Origin: a virus
Length of the DNA stretch: 47,501 nucleotides
Direction: 5' to 3' (one strand)
Virus record (IMG/VR): IMGVR_UViG_3300001915_000002
Coordinates: 1 to 47,501 of that record
Positions 514 through 23,084 of this stretch are shown here, one piece after another. The translations under genes and the position numbers were made by a program. Position 1 is the first letter of the stretch; the number at the start of each line of letters is the position of its first letter. The notes under the pieces were generated by a model. The model saw only the letters and a program-made list of their open reading frames with translations, ran no database searches and was not told the origin of the DNA.

Positions 514-619
514 AATGACAGATTGCAGTTCTGACGTCATTTTGAGGTTTTATTTGTATAACTCCATGCGCGTGCGCGTATACGTGAAAATATATAATTA
601 CCTGTCACTCCTGTCACTT
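514..619. repeat. Intergenic repeat element, copy A (106 bp)
   Basis: Matches copy B at 20476-20581 over 106 bases without a gap, at about 85 identical positions by hand count. The best conserved parts are the core CCATGCGCG-x-GCGCGTATACG and the 3' part CCTGTCACTCCTGTCACTT. Copy A lies in a 335-base non-coding stretch ahead of the rightward gene at 749, and its 3' end overlaps a promoter -35. It is probably a regulatory or replication element. Confidence 0.8.
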
Positions 620-630
620 TAGTGTATAAT
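602..630 (+). promoter_or_regulatory. Promoter with paired CTGTCACT operator
   Basis: A -35 like CTGTCA (602-607), 17-base spacer and perfect TATAAT (625-630) point rightward to the gene at 749. The -35 lies in the direct repeat CTGTCACT-C-CTGTCACT (602-618, 9-bp period); a second pair CTGTCACT-A-CTGTCACT lies at 699-715. A binding protein here would cover the promoter, so repression or activation at this site is likely. Confidence 0.55.
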
Positions 631-748
631 ACAGAGATATGGACAGGTCAGAGGGTGTTTTAGACAGTGACGGGTTAGAGGTTTGAAGTGTCACGGACCT
701 GTCACTACTGTCACTGGAAGCATCACGATGACGAAAGAGAGGCTTGAA

Positions 749-2868: not shown

Positions 2869-3516
2869 TTATTCCATATCGTCCAAGTCACCGAGCGCAG
2901 GGTGTAGGGTATCTAGCCTCTGATCGTGCCTCCACGTGGCGAGGATGCGTCCCTGAAGCTCTTCACGTAGCTCGTCATCCTCTTCGTACTCACCCATGTC
3001 CGCGTCCCAATGATTCCAATGATCGGGGTGAGGTGGGCGTGTACAGCACCAATTGTCCTCGTGCACAGCACCACACACGCCGTCCTTCAAGAGCGTCTCA
3101 GGCGCCACATCCCCCGCACGCAGGTCCTTGTATGGGTCCTCCATATCGAGAGCGTCAGGGACCGTGTCAGGCACCTCTACACGTGTCTCAATGTCCGCGC
3201 GTAGCTCCTCGATACGAAACACCAAGAAGTTCTTAGCCTCCTGGACGCCCCTCAACCAAGACTTCGGGGTGCTGGGTGCCGTCTGCACAGCTTCAATCGT
3301 GTCAACCGCAGCGTCCAACCCTGCCAGCTTGTTCTTCACGTGCGCCTCGTAAACGTTATACGCCAGGGCGCGCCACAGCCTCTTCCTCTCGTCGGTCATT
3401 CCCTCCCATGCCTCGTTCATCGCCGCTGCGTACACTGGGGCTGTTGCATCCACCACTCGCGTTGGGTCGGCCAACGTACTCACCACCCTTTCGTTCGTCA
3501 TTCTCATGATCTGCAT
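2869..3516 (-). CDS. Unknown protein with Cys/His-rich C-terminal part (215 aa)
   Basis: I placed the start at ATG 3516; the ribosome site is weak, and ATGs at 3507 and 3501 are alternatives. Largely helical and acidic. Near residue 150 it has CGAVHEDNWCCTRPPHPDHW, a Cys/His cluster that may bind metal; the tail is strongly acidic. No family recognised. It lies between the RusA-like gene and the sigma-like gene. Confidence 0.6.
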   Translation of the reverse strand: MQIMRMTNERVVSTLADPTRVVDATAPVYAAAMNEAWEGMTDERKRLWRALAYNVYEAHVKNKLAGLDAAVDTIEAVQTAPSTPKSWLRGVQEAKNFLVFRIEELRADIETRVEVPDTVPDALDMEDPYKDLRAGDVAPETLLKDGVCGAVHEDNWCCTRPPHPDHWNHWDADMGEYEEDDELREELQGRILATWRHDQRLDTLHPALGDLDDME

Positions 3517-3566
3517 GGCACCCAAACGGGCACATGCTCAACTCAGTGCATGAACATGAATTCATT

Positions 3567-10843: not shown

Positions 10844-11020
10844 TCACTTCCGACGGCTTATGTTCTGGACGACCAGTACCTGTGCCTTCTTCACATAATC
10901 ATTGTGCTTACGATCACGTGTAGTTTCATTAGCAAACCAATGATCGGAGGTGTCTCCGTTCGCCCACCGAACACGGATACCGTACTGTGTCTCCGCTTCT
11001 CTACGGCCAAACACTGCCAT
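10844..11020 (-). CDS. Unknown small protein (58 aa)
   Basis: GGAGGGGG precedes ATG 11020, which shares its A with the PNK stop (TAATG). Basic, beta-rich (QYGIRVRWANGDTSDHWF). Translation is coupled to PNK. No family recognised. Confidence 0.65.
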   Translation of the reverse strand: MAVFGRREAETQYGIRVRWANGDTSDHWFANETTRDRKHNDYVKKAQVLVVQNISRRK

Positions 11021-11943
11021 TAAAAATCCCCCTCCGCGACCTGTGCGCACGTGAGTCCAATCTCACGCCACATCCTTACAACTTTGTTCCTATCATCGAT
11101 AACGTACCACACGTTGAAGTCCCACTCAACCTTCTCCTTGAACAAGTCGTACTTCACATCGTCATCAGGACGCCCACGATCCTCAACGCTTCGACGCATG
11201 ATCAACTCGAAGTCATCCTCCAGCCACGGCATCTTCTCGTTCAGCCACGCACGCGTGTCATCATAGCACCCGTCCGTGCGCCCGGACATGAAGATGATCT
11301 CAATGCCCTGGTAGAATGCCACCTGAACCATGAGAGCCACGTACTCGAACAGCTCATCGTTCTTCACCAAGTGCTCATCGAACGGTCCACGTCCCACCAT
11401 GCGGGCCACGGTGCCATCGATGTCCACGATGATAGCAATGGGCTTACTCTCATCACGCACGTACGGTTCGTATCGCTTCTCAGGAAGCTTAGCACCGGTG
11501 AACTGAAACGGCAAGGGGTAGGGCTTGCCCTTGATGAACCGCCGGTAGTTGTTGATGATCACGTCTTCCGGGACCTTCTTACCCTGAACACGACGTCTGG
11601 GGTCAGCGTTGCGTGCCAAGCACGTACCAACATCCACGTTCGTTAGGTCCACGATCTCCACAGGCACGTTGTGCTTCCATGCAATGCTGTACAACGTCTG
11701 CACATACTGATTGCGAAGGTTCATGTCCGACACGAACACGTTCTCACCCATGCGCAGGCCCTCTTCAATCAAGGCATGTTGCACATTGGTGACAAGCTTC
11801 TCGTCACAGTCGACGTAGCGGCCGTAGAGCATGTACCTCACCTCGTCACGCTCTACGACCCTACCACCGATGTCCCTCTGCATCTCCCTGGCCTTCGTGC
11901 TCTTACCACAACCAGGGAGGCCACGGAAAATGTAGAGAGTCAT
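11020..11943 (-). CDS. pnkp: Polynucleotide kinase/phosphatase, T4 Pnkp-like (307 aa)
   Basis: Heals broken RNA or DNA ends by 5' phosphorylation and removal of 3' or 2',3'-cyclic phosphate. N-terminal kinase: P-loop GLPGCGKST (Lys14, Ser15), Asp33 as likely base, and an Arg-rich lid near RNADPRRR. C-terminal HAD phosphatase: VDIDGT with Asp174 and Asp176, then IIFMSGRTD, Lys in KEKVEWD and VIDDR. Order and length (T4: 301) match T4 Pnkp. Encoded with two RNA ligases, it completes a heal-and-seal tRNA repair pathway. Confidence 0.93.
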   Translation of the reverse strand: MTLYIFRGLPGCGKSTKAREMQRDIGGRVVERDEVRYMLYGRYVDCDEKLVTNVQHALIEEGLRMGENVFVSDMNLRNQYVQTLYSIAWKHNVPVEIVDLTNVDVGTCLARNADPRRRVQGKKVPEDVIINNYRRFIKGKPYPLPFQFTGAKLPEKRYEPYVRDESKPIAIIVDIDGTVARMVGRGPFDEHLVKNDELFEYVALMVQVAFYQGIEIIFMSGRTDGCYDDTRAWLNEKMPWLEDDFELIMRRSVEDRGRPDDDVKYDLFKEKVEWDFNVWYVIDDRNKVVRMWREIGLTCAQVAEGDF

Positions 11944-12202: not shown

Positions 12203-13270
12203 TTACTGATCTTCTTGCTCTTCTTCCTTCGGGCGGATCGCCTTCCATAGTACAGGGGTTGCACTCTTCCCGTCAAGCACCGCAAAAAACGCGCTCTGCA
12301 CATGCTTAGGATACCCTGACTCTTGTACGAACACAGCCTTTTCCTTACGCGTGCTCATCTGCTTCGTGTTCCACACCAACTCACTGACCTGCGATGACTG
12401 AACGACGTACTCTGCGATCAAACGATTGGCCACACCCATCAGCCAATCGGCGTGCTCCTCGGGGATTTCCTGTGCAATTGCACGTGCACGATAAATGTGT
12501 GGACCTTCCATTGCTTCCCACACATAGCGCTCCGTCAAATGAGACACGATACGATGCAACCGCACGTACTCCTCTTCCTTCACCTTAACCCTGCGCCCAT
12601 CCGAGGTGACAGCGACAACACCTTCCTTGCCCTGCCTGTTCGACAGATTGAAAACACCCTCGAAAGGTCCGATGTATACGGGGTCTGCGCGCAAATCGTA
12701 CATGTCATCTTCGAACTGAAAACGCCCAGTGTAATTTTCGATCGTACCAAGGTACACTAAGCCCTCAAGCCCACCGTACTCCACAACGATACGGTTGTCA
12801 GGATAGATGATCTCGAACAGGTCGGTGTAACCAGGGATGAAGGGAAAGTATTCGATGCCCTTGCTGTGCGCGAAGTTGGTTGCCCACTGCGCCTGCTCAC
12901 TGCTGAACGAACCACGTGTAGCAATACGATACATACCGTTAGGGTCCGGATAGGCAATACCCAACGAACCATCGAACTTTTCGTATGCCCGTACTACTTC
13001 CTGCCCCGTGATAACGTCGGCATTCTTTTCACCGTAATTGTAGAACTTACGGAACGGGCGCGCCACAATCTCCAGGGTGGCAGGGTGAAAGATCAGCCCA
13101 CGGCAATTCTCCGTGACCGCATTCCAGTGGTAGTTTTGCTGCGCCTTGTGCGTATAGTTAGCGAGCGCCAAATCGTCGGGGAACTCGGGGTGGCGCTGCA
13201 CCTTGATAAAGCCCGCGTTACGCATCTCCACGTAATCGTCCCATGAGAACAGGTCAGTGATTCGGACCAC
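12203..13270 (-). CDS. rnlA: RNA ligase, T4 Rnl1-like (355 aa)
   Basis: Seals healed tRNA breaks. The Rnl1 N-terminal blocks are present: RGLIFHP, RPFRKFYNYGE (compare T4 RPMxKFFNxxE), then motif I YEKFDGSL with Lys98 as AMP acceptor. Later come EGLVYLG, KEGVVAV (motif IV) and VKVKEEEY (motif V); the C-terminal 120 residues are helical as in the tRNA-specific domain. Length is close to T4 (374). Works with PNK at 11020. Confidence 0.9.
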   Translation of the reverse strand: MVRITDLFSWDDYVEMRNAGFIKVQRHPEFPDDLALANYTHKAQQNYHWNAVTENCRGLIFHPATLEIVARPFRKFYNYGEKNADVITGQEVVRAYEKFDGSLGIAYPDPNGMYRIATRGSFSSEQAQWATNFAHSKGIEYFPFIPGYTDLFEIIYPDNRIVVEYGGLEGLVYLGTIENYTGRFQFEDDMYDLRADPVYIGPFEGVFNLSNRQGKEGVVAVTSDGRRVKVKEEEYVRLHRIVSHLTERYVWEAMEGPHIYRARAIAQEIPEEHADWLMGVANRLIAEYVVQSSQVSELVWNTKQMSTRKEKAVFVQESGYPKHVQSAFFAVLDGKSATPVLWKAIRPKEEEQEDQ

Positions 13271-18244: not shown

Positions 18245-18492
18245 TCTTCCGCCTCCTCTTCTGTAGTGCTCTCACCCTTGATCACGTAAACTTCATTTGT
18301 TGCGTTCCAGGTCTGAAGTTCCTTCACCGAACGCCCCACACTAGCGGGCAGCCACGTACCGCTGGTAGTCAGTAGTTCAACCTGACCCTGCGGGGTTCGC
18401 TGACGATAAAAAATTTCCTCACGTTCATTCAGACCGAACACAGCGCCCAACCCATCGTTGAACACCGTGGTCACCTTGGCGTACTCAGTCAT
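18220..18492 (-). CDS. Unknown protein downstream of DNA polymerase (90 aa)
   Basis: GGAGG lies 5 bases before ATG 18492, which overlaps the polymerase stop (ATGA). Beta-rich first half (AKVTTVFNDGLGAVFGLNE), acidic helix at the end (STTEEEAEEWLSEAR). Translationally coupled to polymerase. Function unknown. Confidence 0.65.
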   Translation of the reverse strand: MTEYAKVTTVFNDGLGAVFGLNEREEIFYRQRTPQGQVELLTTSGTWLPASVGRSVKELQTWNATNEVYVIKGESTTEEEAEEWLSEARS

Positions 18493-20387
18493 GCTGCCTC
18501 CATCCAATCCGGAATCAAGTTCTTAGTGCCCTTAGAGCGTACCATACCATCACTATCCTTGAACACATAACCATGCGCCCATGTCTTCCCATACACCTCA
18601 CCGGTGGCTGAGATCGGGACATCGATGAACATGCCGCTCATCACTTCCCCTACAGTATGCGCTACTTCGTGGGCGATGTCAACAGGGGCCTGGAACAAAA
18701 TTTCATCGTGCACAGGCAACAACAGATAGTCATCAAGACCCTGGCGCGCCAGATCGATGAGAGCCTGTGCTAACAGATCGCGTGCGATCGACTGCACACT
18801 GTAGTTGACAGCAGCGTACTCGCGTCCCGAGTCCAATGGCAGGTAGCGGCCATGATGGTTGATGATGTACCCACCATTAGTCCGTTGTTCGCTCTGCAAC
18901 TTGCGTGCGTAGGCAGGGAGCTCGAAGTACGCCGCCTCGTATTCGCGGATGGCGTGCTTGACTTGATCAATAGGTGCTCCCGTTTGACGTGACAACGTGC
19001 GTGCCCCGCCACCAAACACCTTACCGAACCCAACGCCCTTGCCAATGCTTCGTTGGAACTTTGTAAATTCCTTACCGTACACGAGTTCGGCGGTGTAGTC
19101 ATGAAGGTCAATGCCGTTGTTGATGGCGTACTTCATCCGTGAAATTCCTGCAAGAGCCGCCAACACCCTAAACTCAACCTGATCATAGTCCGCACTACCC
19201 AACACATAGCCCTCGTCAGCGATCACAGCGCGCCTGATGAGCCAAGCGTTATCGCCACGTGAAGGGAGTTGCTGAAGGGGTGGGTTCCCGATGGACATGC
19301 GTGACGTGCGGGCCTGAAGGGAATTGATGTCAGGATGGACGTGGTCGTTGAAGTCACGAGCGTTGAGCATGGCTTCGGCGTATGCCGTCTTCCACTTCTT
19401 CGCCCTCTTGCTTTCCATGATTGCCGTAAGCAACTCCTGCACGTCTACAGGCGTGTGCACATCTTCAACGAGCTTTTCCATGACGGCCTTATCGACCTTC
19501 GGCTTACCCGTCTTCGTGAACTCCTCAGGACGCCATCCACGCGCCAACAATGCCGCCCCAACTTGCTGTGTGCTCTGCATGTTCTCCACGCCCAACTCCT
19601 GAACTCGTCGAGTGCCCTCCTTCCATTCCTGTTCAAGGCGACGCACCAAGTACTCCGAGAACTTGACATCAACACGGAAGCCACGCCGCTTCATGCGTGT
19701 TGTCACACGCTGAACCTCATGCTCGAAACGTGCCAAGCGGCCGTAGCCCTCACGATTGACACGGGCGCGCATCATGTCGTGCAACCTCTGTGTCAAGATC
19801 ACATCAAGTCCCGCGTACAAAAGGTATAGGGGGTTGTTGATATCGATCTGGGCCCACCCTGTTTGTAGCGTGGCCCCGATCTTATGAAACTCTTCCTTCA
19901 AATCCTTCTGTGTGTCGGGGGCGCTCGGATCGATGTACTTGGCGCTGAGTTCCTTCAGGCCATGCCCAACGCCTCCGTCCATCTTGCTACGTGGATCTAG
20001 AAGGTGAGAGAGGATACGTGTGTCGTGATACTTGTCCTCAGTCTCACTCAACGACATCAGTTGCGTGACGTCGAAGGCGAGAAGGTCGAACGGGGCGTTG
20101 TGGAGGTTCACGCCGCGCCTGAACAACCTACGCAAAAACTCAATCACTACGCGCGGACGCACCGAGAACAAACGATAAACATAGGCGGTGCGTGCGTTGC
20201 CAAACTGTAGTGTTCGAATACGAAAAGTAGGTGAGAAGAGATCAAGACCTGTGGTCTCGGTGTCAACGCTCAGTTCGAAAGGTTCGTGATCGTCGATGAA
20301 GTGCATTGCTTCGCGCACATCCTCATCACTTTCGATCACGTTGACTTGGCACTCAATGCCGTCCAACGTATAGGGGTAACGAATCAT
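18489..20387 (-). CDS. polA: DNA polymerase I, family A with 3'-5' exonuclease (632 aa)
   Basis: Replicative phage polymerase. Exonuclease: Asp42-x-Glu44 (VDTETTGLD), HNAPFD with Asp101, and YAGLD with Asp195. Polymerase: motif A SADYDQVEFR (Asp400, Glu405), motif B RSIGKGVGFGKVFGG (Arg446, Lys450, Phe454), motif C VHDE (His560, Asp561). All catalytic acids are intact. Phe454 matches E. coli Phe762, which favours dNTPs. The position of Tyr766 is Phe458 here, which is unusual. It lacks a 5'-nuclease domain, as most phage enzymes do. Own promoter at 20443-20472. Confidence 0.96.
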   Translation of the reverse strand: MIRYPYTLDGIECQVNVIESDEDVREAMHFIDDHEPFELSVDTETTGLDLFSPTFRIRTLQFGNARTAYVYRLFSVRPRVVIEFLRRLFRRGVNLHNAPFDLLAFDVTQLMSLSETEDKYHDTRILSHLLDPRSKMDGGVGHGLKELSAKYIDPSAPDTQKDLKEEFHKIGATLQTGWAQIDINNPLYLLYAGLDVILTQRLHDMMRARVNREGYGRLARFEHEVQRVTTRMKRRGFRVDVKFSEYLVRRLEQEWKEGTRRVQELGVENMQSTQQVGAALLARGWRPEEFTKTGKPKVDKAVMEKLVEDVHTPVDVQELLTAIMESKRAKKWKTAYAEAMLNARDFNDHVHPDINSLQARTSRMSIGNPPLQQLPSRGDNAWLIRRAVIADEGYVLGSADYDQVEFRVLAALAGISRMKYAINNGIDLHDYTAELVYGKEFTKFQRSIGKGVGFGKVFGGGARTLSRQTGAPIDQVKHAIREYEAAYFELPAYARKLQSEQRTNGGYIINHHGRYLPLDSGREYAAVNYSVQSIARDLLAQALIDLARQGLDDYLLLPVHDEILFQAPVDIAHEVAHTVGEVMSGMFIDVPISATGEVYGKTWAHGYVFKDSDGMVRSKGTKNLIPDWMEAA

Positions 20388-20475: not shown

Positions 20476-20581
20476 AATGACAGATGGCAGTTTAGGTGCC
20501 ATTTTAAAGTTTGTTTTGTATAGCTCCATGCGCGGGCGCGTATACGCGTAATAACTGTAGTACCTGTCACTCCTGTCACTT
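20476..20581. repeat. Intergenic repeat element, copy B (106 bp)
   Basis: Gapless match to copy A at 514-619. Contains the perfect palindrome CGCGTATACGCG and the pair CTGTCACT-C-CTGTCACT (20564-20580); a third related pair follows at 20651-20666. It fills the non-coding interval between polA and the primase gene, which makes it a candidate for replication control or an origin part. Non-coding 20388-20720 holds only this, the promoter and the extra repeat. Confidence 0.8.
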
Positions 20582-20720
20582 AAACGATAAAGAAGGGGTA
20601 TTTATGCAGGTCATATGGTGTGACGGGTGGGATGACAGGTGCAAAATGTTCTGTCACTCCTGTCATGGTCGAGGGCATGAAAGAAGGGCACCATCACACA
20701 GAGTGACGATACCCTTACTC

Positions 20721-23084
20721 TCAGAACATCTCCCTTACAGTGGCCATAGAGTTACCGTCTGCTCGGTCCGGCTGTGCCGCGCCTTCGGAGCTATGCTGCC
20801 TGACGGCGGTAATCTCCTCGTTCGCTGCCAATCCCAGGAAGACCGTGCCTGTGGCCGTGCGCTTGGTGTTGTACCCGCGTTCCTCCAACGCGGCCTTGAA
20901 CGCCTTCTGTGAGAGCATGTCGCGCTCACTGTAAGACTGTGTCAACGCCCACTTCTTGTATAGCGAATATGTCCACGCGCTCGGTACCTTCTTGTTATCT
21001 TCAGGTACCAACCAACCACCATGCTCGACAAGTTCAATGAACCCACCGAGGATGTCAGCGCTCTCGCGGTACTCACGGGTAGCGTTGCGCACACGATCAG
21101 GTTCCTGCAACCCCGACGCGTACCACTCGGCCGCGCCCCGTACCGCCCACGACAAAATCCCTGGTGCTTCACCAAGCAATGTCGTAGCAAGTCCGTGGTC
21201 ACGTTCGTGTGGCTCAAAGAACCTCTGCCACGGAATTAGCTTCACCCTGCGCCAAATGCCTTCATCAGCACCACGAATGTCAGGCTTCGCATTCGTCGCC
21301 ATCTGCAAGAGGAAGTTCGGGTAGAACTCAATCTCGTTCTGGTGGAGGGCGCGCGCCGTAATCATGTCACCCGAGGCCATTCGCTTGATTTGCGCCTCGT
21401 CAATAGATGCACGAGCGTCTGCCTCGTTGACCGTGACAAGACGGGAACCACGCAATCGCACCAAGTCAGGTCGAGCGGCCCCTGCTCCATCGCGCTTACG
21501 CTCGAATGAGGACCAATCAGTAACGCTGCTAATACTCCCGAACACTGATCGCAAAGTATCCAGGAAGATTGACTTTCCATTGCTGCCCCTTCCATAATGA
21601 ATGGCCATGGCATGCTCCGATGTCTCACCTGTAATGCCATAGCCTACTAGGCGCTGAAGGAACGGAGGCATGTCCGGCATATCAGGCATGACCTCTTCCA
21701 AGAATTGCTGCCAGCGTGGCGCTACAGCCTCGGGATCGTAATCGATATCGACCAACTGCGTCATGTGCAGTTCAGGACGATGCTCATACAACATTCCCGT
21801 GCGCAAATCCACCACACCATTCCTCACTGACAAGAGGTTCTTGTGACTGTCCAAGTCCTCGGCCGTCAGGCGAATGGTGTACGTGGCCTGCATCAGCTTC
21901 ATCGCATTCTGCAAGCCTGTGTGACTCAATGAATAACGAATATGCTGCTTGGCTAGCTTGGCGCTCCTTTGCTCCTTAATCAATTCCGATAGGTCTTCGT
22001 AAAGGAATTCCTGTGCTTCCTTCACCATCTGTAGCACGGACGCTGAGTTTTCATTCTCAGGCATCCACACCTTACCGTTCCAAATCAACCACCCGATACC
22101 CTCACAGTATCGAATTCGGTCACGGAAGATCTCCACAAGACGGTTGGCGTTGCCAGCGTCCGTGAGACGTTCATCATCAAGCGCCTCTGCGCTAGCTGTA
22201 TAATTGGTCACCTTGATCCATCCAGGAGTAGTCTTACCCTCGCCATCGCTTGCGCGCGGAGGGATCGATACGCTAGGGTGGGGTCGAGGTGTTACCTCGG
22301 CGAACTGCCAGGCACGTTCAACCTTGCCCGACAATCCCTTCAGCGTGTACGGCAACTTCCTGACGAAGTCGTTCACGATCATGTCCTGATTGAGGACAGC
22401 GTCAGGGACACACATTGACAACTGAAACGAGCGCACCAACAAGCGGTACGCTGTATCGTCGCGTGTCCCGTCTTCAGCCTCGGCGGCCTCGCGCACATTC
22501 ATGCGATGCCACCTGACTACATCATCCCACTGATCCTCAGGATACTGATAGTGGGATTCAGGAACGTCACGTGCCTGGCCTACGATCTTGTTTAGGATTC
22601 CAGCGGGGAGTGGTTCCAAATCTCCGCTGTCAACAACACGGTATTCCCTTCCCTCAATGGATGATGTTGGAGCAACGATATAGCCGCCGTCAGCGCGGAC
22701 ATCAATGCCTGGTCCGAGTCGTCCGACGGAGTTTCCGATGTGATCGACACCGTCAGGGTATCGGAATAGAAGGTGCACTCCACCTGAAGGTGTTTCGTGT
22801 TCTCGCGTGCGTACCTTTCCTCCGCCCAGGTCATATACAGCCTCCTTCGTTCCTCCGTGCTTAGGATCAACATCGATCACGACAATGCCACTGCTCTTGC
22901 CCGTGACAATGCCTACGTTAAACTGTTCATTCTCCAACTCATCAATGAAATCTTCCGAGTCTAGTTGACTCCATGACAAGTGACCCGAAGTTCCCTCGGG
23001 AGGGCGCTTCGAGTTATTTGCAAGTGGAAATAGAACCCATCCCTCTCGCATCATCTGTGTAATTGTCTGCTTACGCAGGGTCAT
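20721..23084 (-). CDS. Bifunctional primase/polymerase-helicase, D5-like (787 aa)
   Basis: Unwinds and primes phage DNA. N-terminal PrimPol domain: VVIDVDP with Asp71 and Asp73, GGVHLLFRYP near 101-110, and GIDVRADGGYIVAP. Central D5 N-terminal region. C-terminal SF3 helicase: Walker A GRGSNGKS (498-505), Walker B-like VTVNEAD (Glu554), sensor QMATNAKP (Asn598) and arginine finger region WRRVKL. Length is typical for fused phage primase-helicases. Promoter at 23145-23174. Confidence 0.93.
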   Translation of the reverse strand: MTLRKQTITQMMREGWVLFPLANNSKRPPEGTSGHLSWSQLDSEDFIDELENEQFNVGIVTGKSSGIVVIDVDPKHGGTKEAVYDLGGGKVRTREHETPSGGVHLLFRYPDGVDHIGNSVGRLGPGIDVRADGGYIVAPTSSIEGREYRVVDSGDLEPLPAGILNKIVGQARDVPESHYQYPEDQWDDVVRWHRMNVREAAEAEDGTRDDTAYRLLVRSFQLSMCVPDAVLNQDMIVNDFVRKLPYTLKGLSGKVERAWQFAEVTPRPHPSVSIPPRASDGEGKTTPGWIKVTNYTASAEALDDERLTDAGNANRLVEIFRDRIRYCEGIGWLIWNGKVWMPENENSASVLQMVKEAQEFLYEDLSELIKEQRSAKLAKQHIRYSLSHTGLQNAMKLMQATYTIRLTAEDLDSHKNLLSVRNGVVDLRTGMLYEHRPELHMTQLVDIDYDPEAVAPRWQQFLEEVMPDMPDMPPFLQRLVGYGITGETSEHAMAIHYGRGSNGKSIFLDTLRSVFGSISSVTDWSSFERKRDGAGAARPDLVRLRGSRLVTVNEADARASIDEAQIKRMASGDMITARALHQNEIEFYPNFLLQMATNAKPDIRGADEGIWRRVKLIPWQRFFEPHERDHGLATTLLGEAPGILSWAVRGAAEWYASGLQEPDRVRNATREYRESADILGGFIELVEHGGWLVPEDNKKVPSAWTYSLYKKWALTQSYSERDMLSQKAFKAALEERGYNTKRTATGTVFLGLAANEEITAVRQHSSEGAAQPDRADGNSMATVREMF

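Follow-up and report, generated by a model that had tools for sequence, protein, structure and literature searches.

The stretch of DNA analyzed here (the window) is a virus record of 47,501 bases. Its genes include a P4-family primase-helicase, a family A DNA polymerase and a sigma-factor-like protein (Table 1). The family assignment of the primase-helicase follows from scores of 249.6 bits against TIGR01613 (primase_Cterm; cut-off 108.7) and 108 bits against PF08706 (D5_N; cut-off 22.4). The best solved match of its profile is chain 7ola, "DNA primase," which we take to be the SaPI5 protein. Relatives in cultured phages all fall below 60% identity in this protein, and we infer an actinobacterial host from the closest annotated hosts, which are actinobacteria. 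Elsewhere in the window, genes for a polynucleotide kinase-phosphatase and a T4-type RNA ligase (11020–11943 and 12203–13270) accompany 22 tRNA genes in two arrays, which together look like a tRNA repair set.

An earlier note on this DNA had reported that two non-coding intervals share 106 bases without a gap at about 80% identity. The duplication is real and not a product of chance. Ungapped alignment of 514–619 with 20476–20581 gave 85 identical bases out of 106 (80%), and BLAST of 490–760 against the whole record returned 20476–20581 at 80% (E 4.7e-23), with no third comparable copy in the record. Both copies lie outside plausible genes. Copy A sits close to the record's left end, flanked by small genes of the + strand, and shares their orientation. 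Copy B occupies the gap between the 3′ end of the primase gene and the start of the polymerase gene, as the note had stated and as the gene positions confirm, and is oriented against these two − strand genes. The 106 bp held up as a similarity but not as a unit, as they are the left half of module A, and each complete module spans ~190–200 bp. Likewise, among the parts that the note had called conserved, the CTGTCACT words are conserved (in a spelling specific to each lineage), whereas the GC-rich core lies within a spacer and is kept only by the closest relative; the words, rather than the CGCGTATACGCG palindrome, are what is preserved. The word CTGTCACT occurs seven times in 47.5 kb against ~1.4 expected, with all seven inside the two regions and on one strand. 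GCGCGTATACG is found in the record solely at 574 and 20536, within the spacers; among the relatives, only the closest, G002, has it.

Table 1. Coordinates of the modules, their parts and the neighboring genes (window positions unless another record is named)
Feature	Position	Strand	Sequence or annotation
Module A, complete iteron module	515–715	+	
A, left inverted word pair	515–528	−	ATGACAG ATTGCAG, second copy degenerate; G002 ortholog GTGACGGGTGACGG
A, spacer	529–601		73 bp, 64% A+T; contains CCATGCGCGTGCGCGTATACG and AAAATATATAATTAC
A, direct word pair	602–617	+	CTGTCAC-TC-CTGTCAC, 9-bp period
A, inverted word	667–673	−	GTGACGG
A, second direct word pair	699–714	+	CTGTCAC-TA-CTGTCAC
Module B, gap between primase 3′ end and polymerase start	20477–20666	+	
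B, left inverted word pair	20477–20490	−	ATGACAG ATGGCAG
B, spacer	20491–20563		73 bp, 58% A+T; contains CCATGCGCGGGCGCGTATACGCG
B, direct word pair	20564–20579	+	CTGTCAC-TC-CTGTCAC
B, inverted words	20620–20638	−	GTGACGG (20620–20626), ATGACAG (20632–20638)
B, second direct word pair	20651–20666	+	CTGTCAC-TC-CTGTCAT
Sigma-factor-like protein, 222 aa	2105–2773	−	TIGR02937, 51 bits (cut-off 42.9)
Family A DNA polymerase, 632 aa, downstream of primase, same direction	18489–20387	−	
Prim-Pol/D5_N/P4-family primase-helicase, 787 aa, proposed initiator	20721–23084	−	Pfam Prim-Pol, D5_N
Primase-helicase C-terminal residues 738–752, proposed wing	20829–20873	−	lineage-variable residues TATGTVF
Paired module positions in the four long records	window 514/20476; G002 4683/26032; G005 45033/31534; G006 52032/31311		

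Each module follows one layout: it opens with one or two inverted words, usually with TTTA next, and continues with a spacer and a direct word pair; most modules add an extra inverted word and direct pair to the right. Tandem short words thus appear on both strands within about 200 bp, with A+T-rich DNA separating or adjoining the groups of words, as in iteron regions. In the ten modules that we located in the window and its relatives, the spacers measure 73, 73, 73, 73, 68, 75, 75, 69, 70 and 72 bp. Their sequence differs between lineages, while their length stays at 68–75 bp. Spacer A+T content is 58–72%, compared with a window average of 47%, and 1.1% of the record consists of 73-bp stretches reaching 60% A+T or more. 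Neither A nor B matched an RNA family in Rfam. A further motif, TGACCTGC, occurs inside modules (20606–20613 in the window, 4440 in G004, 31591 and 45090 in G005), 3′ of the primase in two Streptomyces plasmids (L061 and L062; either orientation), and at a few other places. Two readings of the words were discarded. Pho-box repeats have an 11-bp period, and the period here is 9 bp. The words also resemble arm sites of lambda-type integrases, a reading set aside since the layout goes with the primase gene.

Megablast of positions 1–24000 found no match among phages. Protein searches identified G002 (primase 89% identical), G004 (81%), G006 (69%) and G005 (65%), along with the truncated records G003 and G007 and a contig in an Algoriphagus assembly, L043. 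In viral contigs, the pattern CCATGCGCGNGCGCGTATACG occurred only in G002 and one short contig (L005). The latter 21-bp match was isolated and taken as chance, so attention moved off the GC-rich core. Direct DNA searches for A or B in G003–G007 were empty, as these relatives use other words and the sequences of G003 and G007 break off within the primase gene; the modules of G004–G006 were instead found by reading the orthologous gaps. A generic repeat search in the relatives returned mainly tRNAs and collagen-like repeats. A genome scan for prophage relatives yielded the single contig L043, and further viral scans added no new lineages. Primase relatives from Arthrobacter, Azeevirinae, Curtobacterium and phiC31 had no clear module in the regions searched. 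L043 (JAFIDK010000016.1) is a 7-kb contig of the Algoriphagus aestuarii assembly that carries the replication genes of the group and a module. The C-terminal part of its primase is 99% identical to that of viral contig G007 over 225 residues, and the contig is possibly a contamination of that assembly.

The check on related phages that had been proposed for the duplication gave a clear picture: each long relative has two modules of equal layout, with a word that differs by lineage. All four long records (window, G002, G005 and G006) contain exactly two modules, in one orientation per record and 13.5–21 kb apart, so that distant regions carry the same putative initiator words in each. One module lies 3′ of the primase-helicase gene and the other near the sigma-like gene, which is conserved in G002, G005 and G006 and is within ~1–2 kb of module A in all four records (about 1.4 kb in the window). 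In G002, both copies are at corresponding places. The fragments G004 and L043 each show one module. In the window, G002, G004, G005 and G006, it is module B, not A, that directly follows the 3′ end of the primase gene; the L043 module is a little further downstream or next to the end of the primase gene. In G004, G005, G006 and L043, the region downstream of the primase keeps the layout with another word. The window uses CTGTCAC; G002, CCGTCAC; G005, CCTACAC; G004, CCTACAT and variants; G006, CCGTCACC with CCTACAC; and L043, CTGCCAT and CCTACAT.

The words change in step at the two sites. Between the window and G002, the same T-to-C change affects 10 of the 11 CTGTCA words (five in A and six in B; counted by hand on alignments), the exception being the word at 20651. 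The same base altered at two sites 20 kb apart points to one trans-acting protein reading both. Within genomes, A and B are 76, 77, 99 and 87% identical, compared with 57–70% for B modules of distant lineages, indicating that the pair evolves in concert. The window and G002 modules are slightly closer as orthologs (80–82%) than as paralogs (76–77%); any copying between modules is therefore slower than that split.

We also searched for word clusters without reference to position, accepting any 7-mer that had four or more occurrences in 230 bp, used both strands and included a tandem pair. Modules were recovered in the window, G002, G004 and G005, with nothing else in these records, and 1 of 20 simulated genomes gave any match. 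This strict setting missed module A and both mixed-word modules of G006. With the tandem period widened to 12 for other replicons, the search returned the annotated ori1 and crr of P4 and nothing else; in Sfi21 it found the annotated origin and a single additional cluster. When the both-strand requirement was lifted, a Thermaerobacter plasmid that encodes a P4-family primase yielded a module of inverted-spacer-direct layout, located upstream and not downstream of the primase gene, and a Bacillus plasmid yielded a cluster immediately 3′ of its primase. With that requirement kept, a Streptomyces plasmid showed clusters 3′ of its primase plus unrelated ones. High-GC comparison genomes showed some other clusters. 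In the plasmid of Streptomyces sp. NBC_01102 (L062, ~3430–3530), the G002 word occurs as an inverted pair, GTGACGGGTTGAGGTG / CCACCTCAACCCGTCACTC, 3′ of a P4-family primase.

The C-terminus of the primase-helicase is a candidate reader of the words. Helices followed by a β hairpin are predicted after the helicase, in low-confidence AlphaFold models (pLDDT 41–43), and the C-terminal domain alone had no match in the PDB. With structure models this poor, the assignment is based on predicted secondary structure and family, from which we infer a winged-helix-like, putative word-binding domain. The word CCGTCAC and the exact wing TNKGAVYL occur in both G002 and G006, even though G006 as a whole is distant from G002 and from the window; at primase residues 744, 745, 747 and 749, G002 equals G006 and differs from the window. 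This association amounts to one coincidence among six lineages, and Fisher tests applied to sites in the primase did not reach significance (p 0.30 and 0.12), so the wing evidence is suggestive only. Residues 157–176, outside the C-terminal domain, show a similar pattern of G002 and G006 against the window, possibly reflecting mosaicism of the Prim-Pol domain.

Several characterized replicons share parts of this arrangement. The C-terminal domains of the D5-type helicases SaPI Rep and Cch2 (SCC) are reported to bind iterons directly downstream of the genes (PMC7581432). SaPI5 Rep and SCC Cch2 resemble our case in pairing a D5/Primase_Cterm helicase with iterons in the gap downstream of its gene; unlike our case, the account consulted describes one origin beside the gene and no distant second copy (PMC7581432), and the Cch2 word, AAGTG, is unlike the window word. 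The annotation of the P4 record places type 1 repeats in the origin region and in crr, directly 3′ of the alpha gene. P4 is similar in its P4-family primase-helicase (alpha), in having two regions (ori1 and crr) with the same words in both orientations, and in its word period of about 9–11 bp. It differs in that ori1 and crr are not copies beyond the word TGTTCACC and crr is a 120-bp direct duplication, whereas both sites of the window share the whole module. Moreover, ori1 and crr are ~5 kb apart in an 11.6-kb genome, compared with 13–21 kb here, and the window, unlike P4, has a primase with a Prim-Pol N-terminus and belongs to a phage with its own polymerase. In the Streptococcus phage Sfi21, too, an A+T-rich middle is flanked by inverted and direct word pairs, in a 302-bp non-coding origin region that resembles B in lying 3′ of a putative primase gene, but a single module was found and its word is AGTAACTA.

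The Bacillus phage SPP1 has two gp38-binding origins, oriL and oriR, about 13 kb apart; as here, distant origins combine direct repeats and an A+T-rich unwinding element under one initiator (PMC6316719). Unlike here, gp38 acts together with a distinct helicase loader and a helicase of the DnaB type, and oriL is inside gene 38. ORF904 of the Sulfolobus plasmid pRN1 is likewise a Prim-Pol and helicase protein with an essential cis region just downstream, but that element is a 100-nt stem-loop in which the authors found no iterons (PMC4234260).

Taken together, A and B are probably two copies of an iteron origin, or a pair of the ori1/crr kind, bound by the C-terminal domain of the primase-helicase. 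Support for the origin reading comes from lineage-specific words within a conserved architecture, the A+T-rich spacer, the site 3′ of a P4-family primase-helicase, and the recovery of known origins by the blind search. In the mechanism that we propose, the winged-helix-like domain would bind the words, hexamers of the primase-helicase would assemble in opposite orientations on both flanks, and melting of the spacer would start theta replication. B would then occupy, directly 3′ of the initiator gene, the place held by the origins or required sites of SaPI, Sfi21, P4 (crr) and SCC. A may be a second origin, as with SPP1 oriL/oriR, or the partner in a bipartite origin, as with P4 ori1/crr; by analogy, the two modules would be origins, or an origin and a cis partner. 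Both modules would change word together because one protein must read both, and copying between them by recombination would also keep A and B alike.

The earlier note had proposed a regulatory module, a recombination site or part of an origin; the origin is well supported, a promoter or operator is less likely, and no positive evidence emerged for recombination. Its promoter statements were weak, with few promoter-like matches, scoring 10/12 at A and 9/12, near chance, at B. Its GC-skew check did not mark an origin either, as skew tracks gene strand with no turning point at A or B. An operator array, at which a phage regulator (for example, acting with the sigma-like protein) would switch the early operon through A and the polymerase through B, is unlikely in our assessment. 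The 10/12 matches overlap the words of A (602–630 on the + strand and 617–589 on the − strand), module A is near the sigma-like gene in four of four records, and concerted change of the word would also be expected of an operator with several sites. Nevertheless, A runs in the direction of its neighboring genes whereas B runs opposite to those for primase and polymerase, G002 lacks the promoter-like spacing seen at A, and sigma-70-type hexamers stand in no fixed relation to the words and the downstream gene. This opposite facing and the lack of any preserved promoter relation make the operator less likely. In addition, the constant 68–75 bp A+T-rich spacer and the location 3′ of a P4-family initiator gene are characteristic of origins and recur in plasmids, which must have an origin there.

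Within the origin reading, it is possible, though we doubt it, that one module is the true origin and the other a fork block or recombination start used by the same protein. SPP1 provides a precedent, as a fork stall proposed at oriR would trigger the switch to concatemer synthesis (PMC6316719), and the modules here are 13.5–21 kb apart versus ~13 kb. Both modules, however, have retained every part of the layout, the A+T-rich spacer among them, so neither gives the impression of having shrunk to a mere binding site. Far less probable than any of these is a recombination or integration site, or a mobile repeat inserted twice. Long gapless direct repeats, 99% alike in G005, would suit it, but position and orientation are constant in four lineages, each with its own word, and we saw no extra copies and no target duplication or integrase gene beside the modules. 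The fixed positions and lineage-specific words thus speak against it.

To our knowledge, the origins of actinophages with Prim-Pol/D5 primase-helicases are mostly unmapped, and our literature search found none described with iterons. The P4-family iteron origin is a known class; what is new is the pairing of complete copies and the concerted change of their word. The analysis offers a candidate origin pair, an initiator domain and six lineages with matching words, with which the origin-reading code of a self-loading primase-helicase becomes testable. Two complete copies kept alike 13–21 kb apart also pose the choice between two origins and one bipartite origin. More tentatively still, initiator and words may diverge fast and in step, with selection and gene conversion rewriting both copies, such that the lineages would constitute origin-compatibility groups. 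If so, separate groups would perhaps allow these phages to evade satellites or decoy origins that titrate away the initiator.
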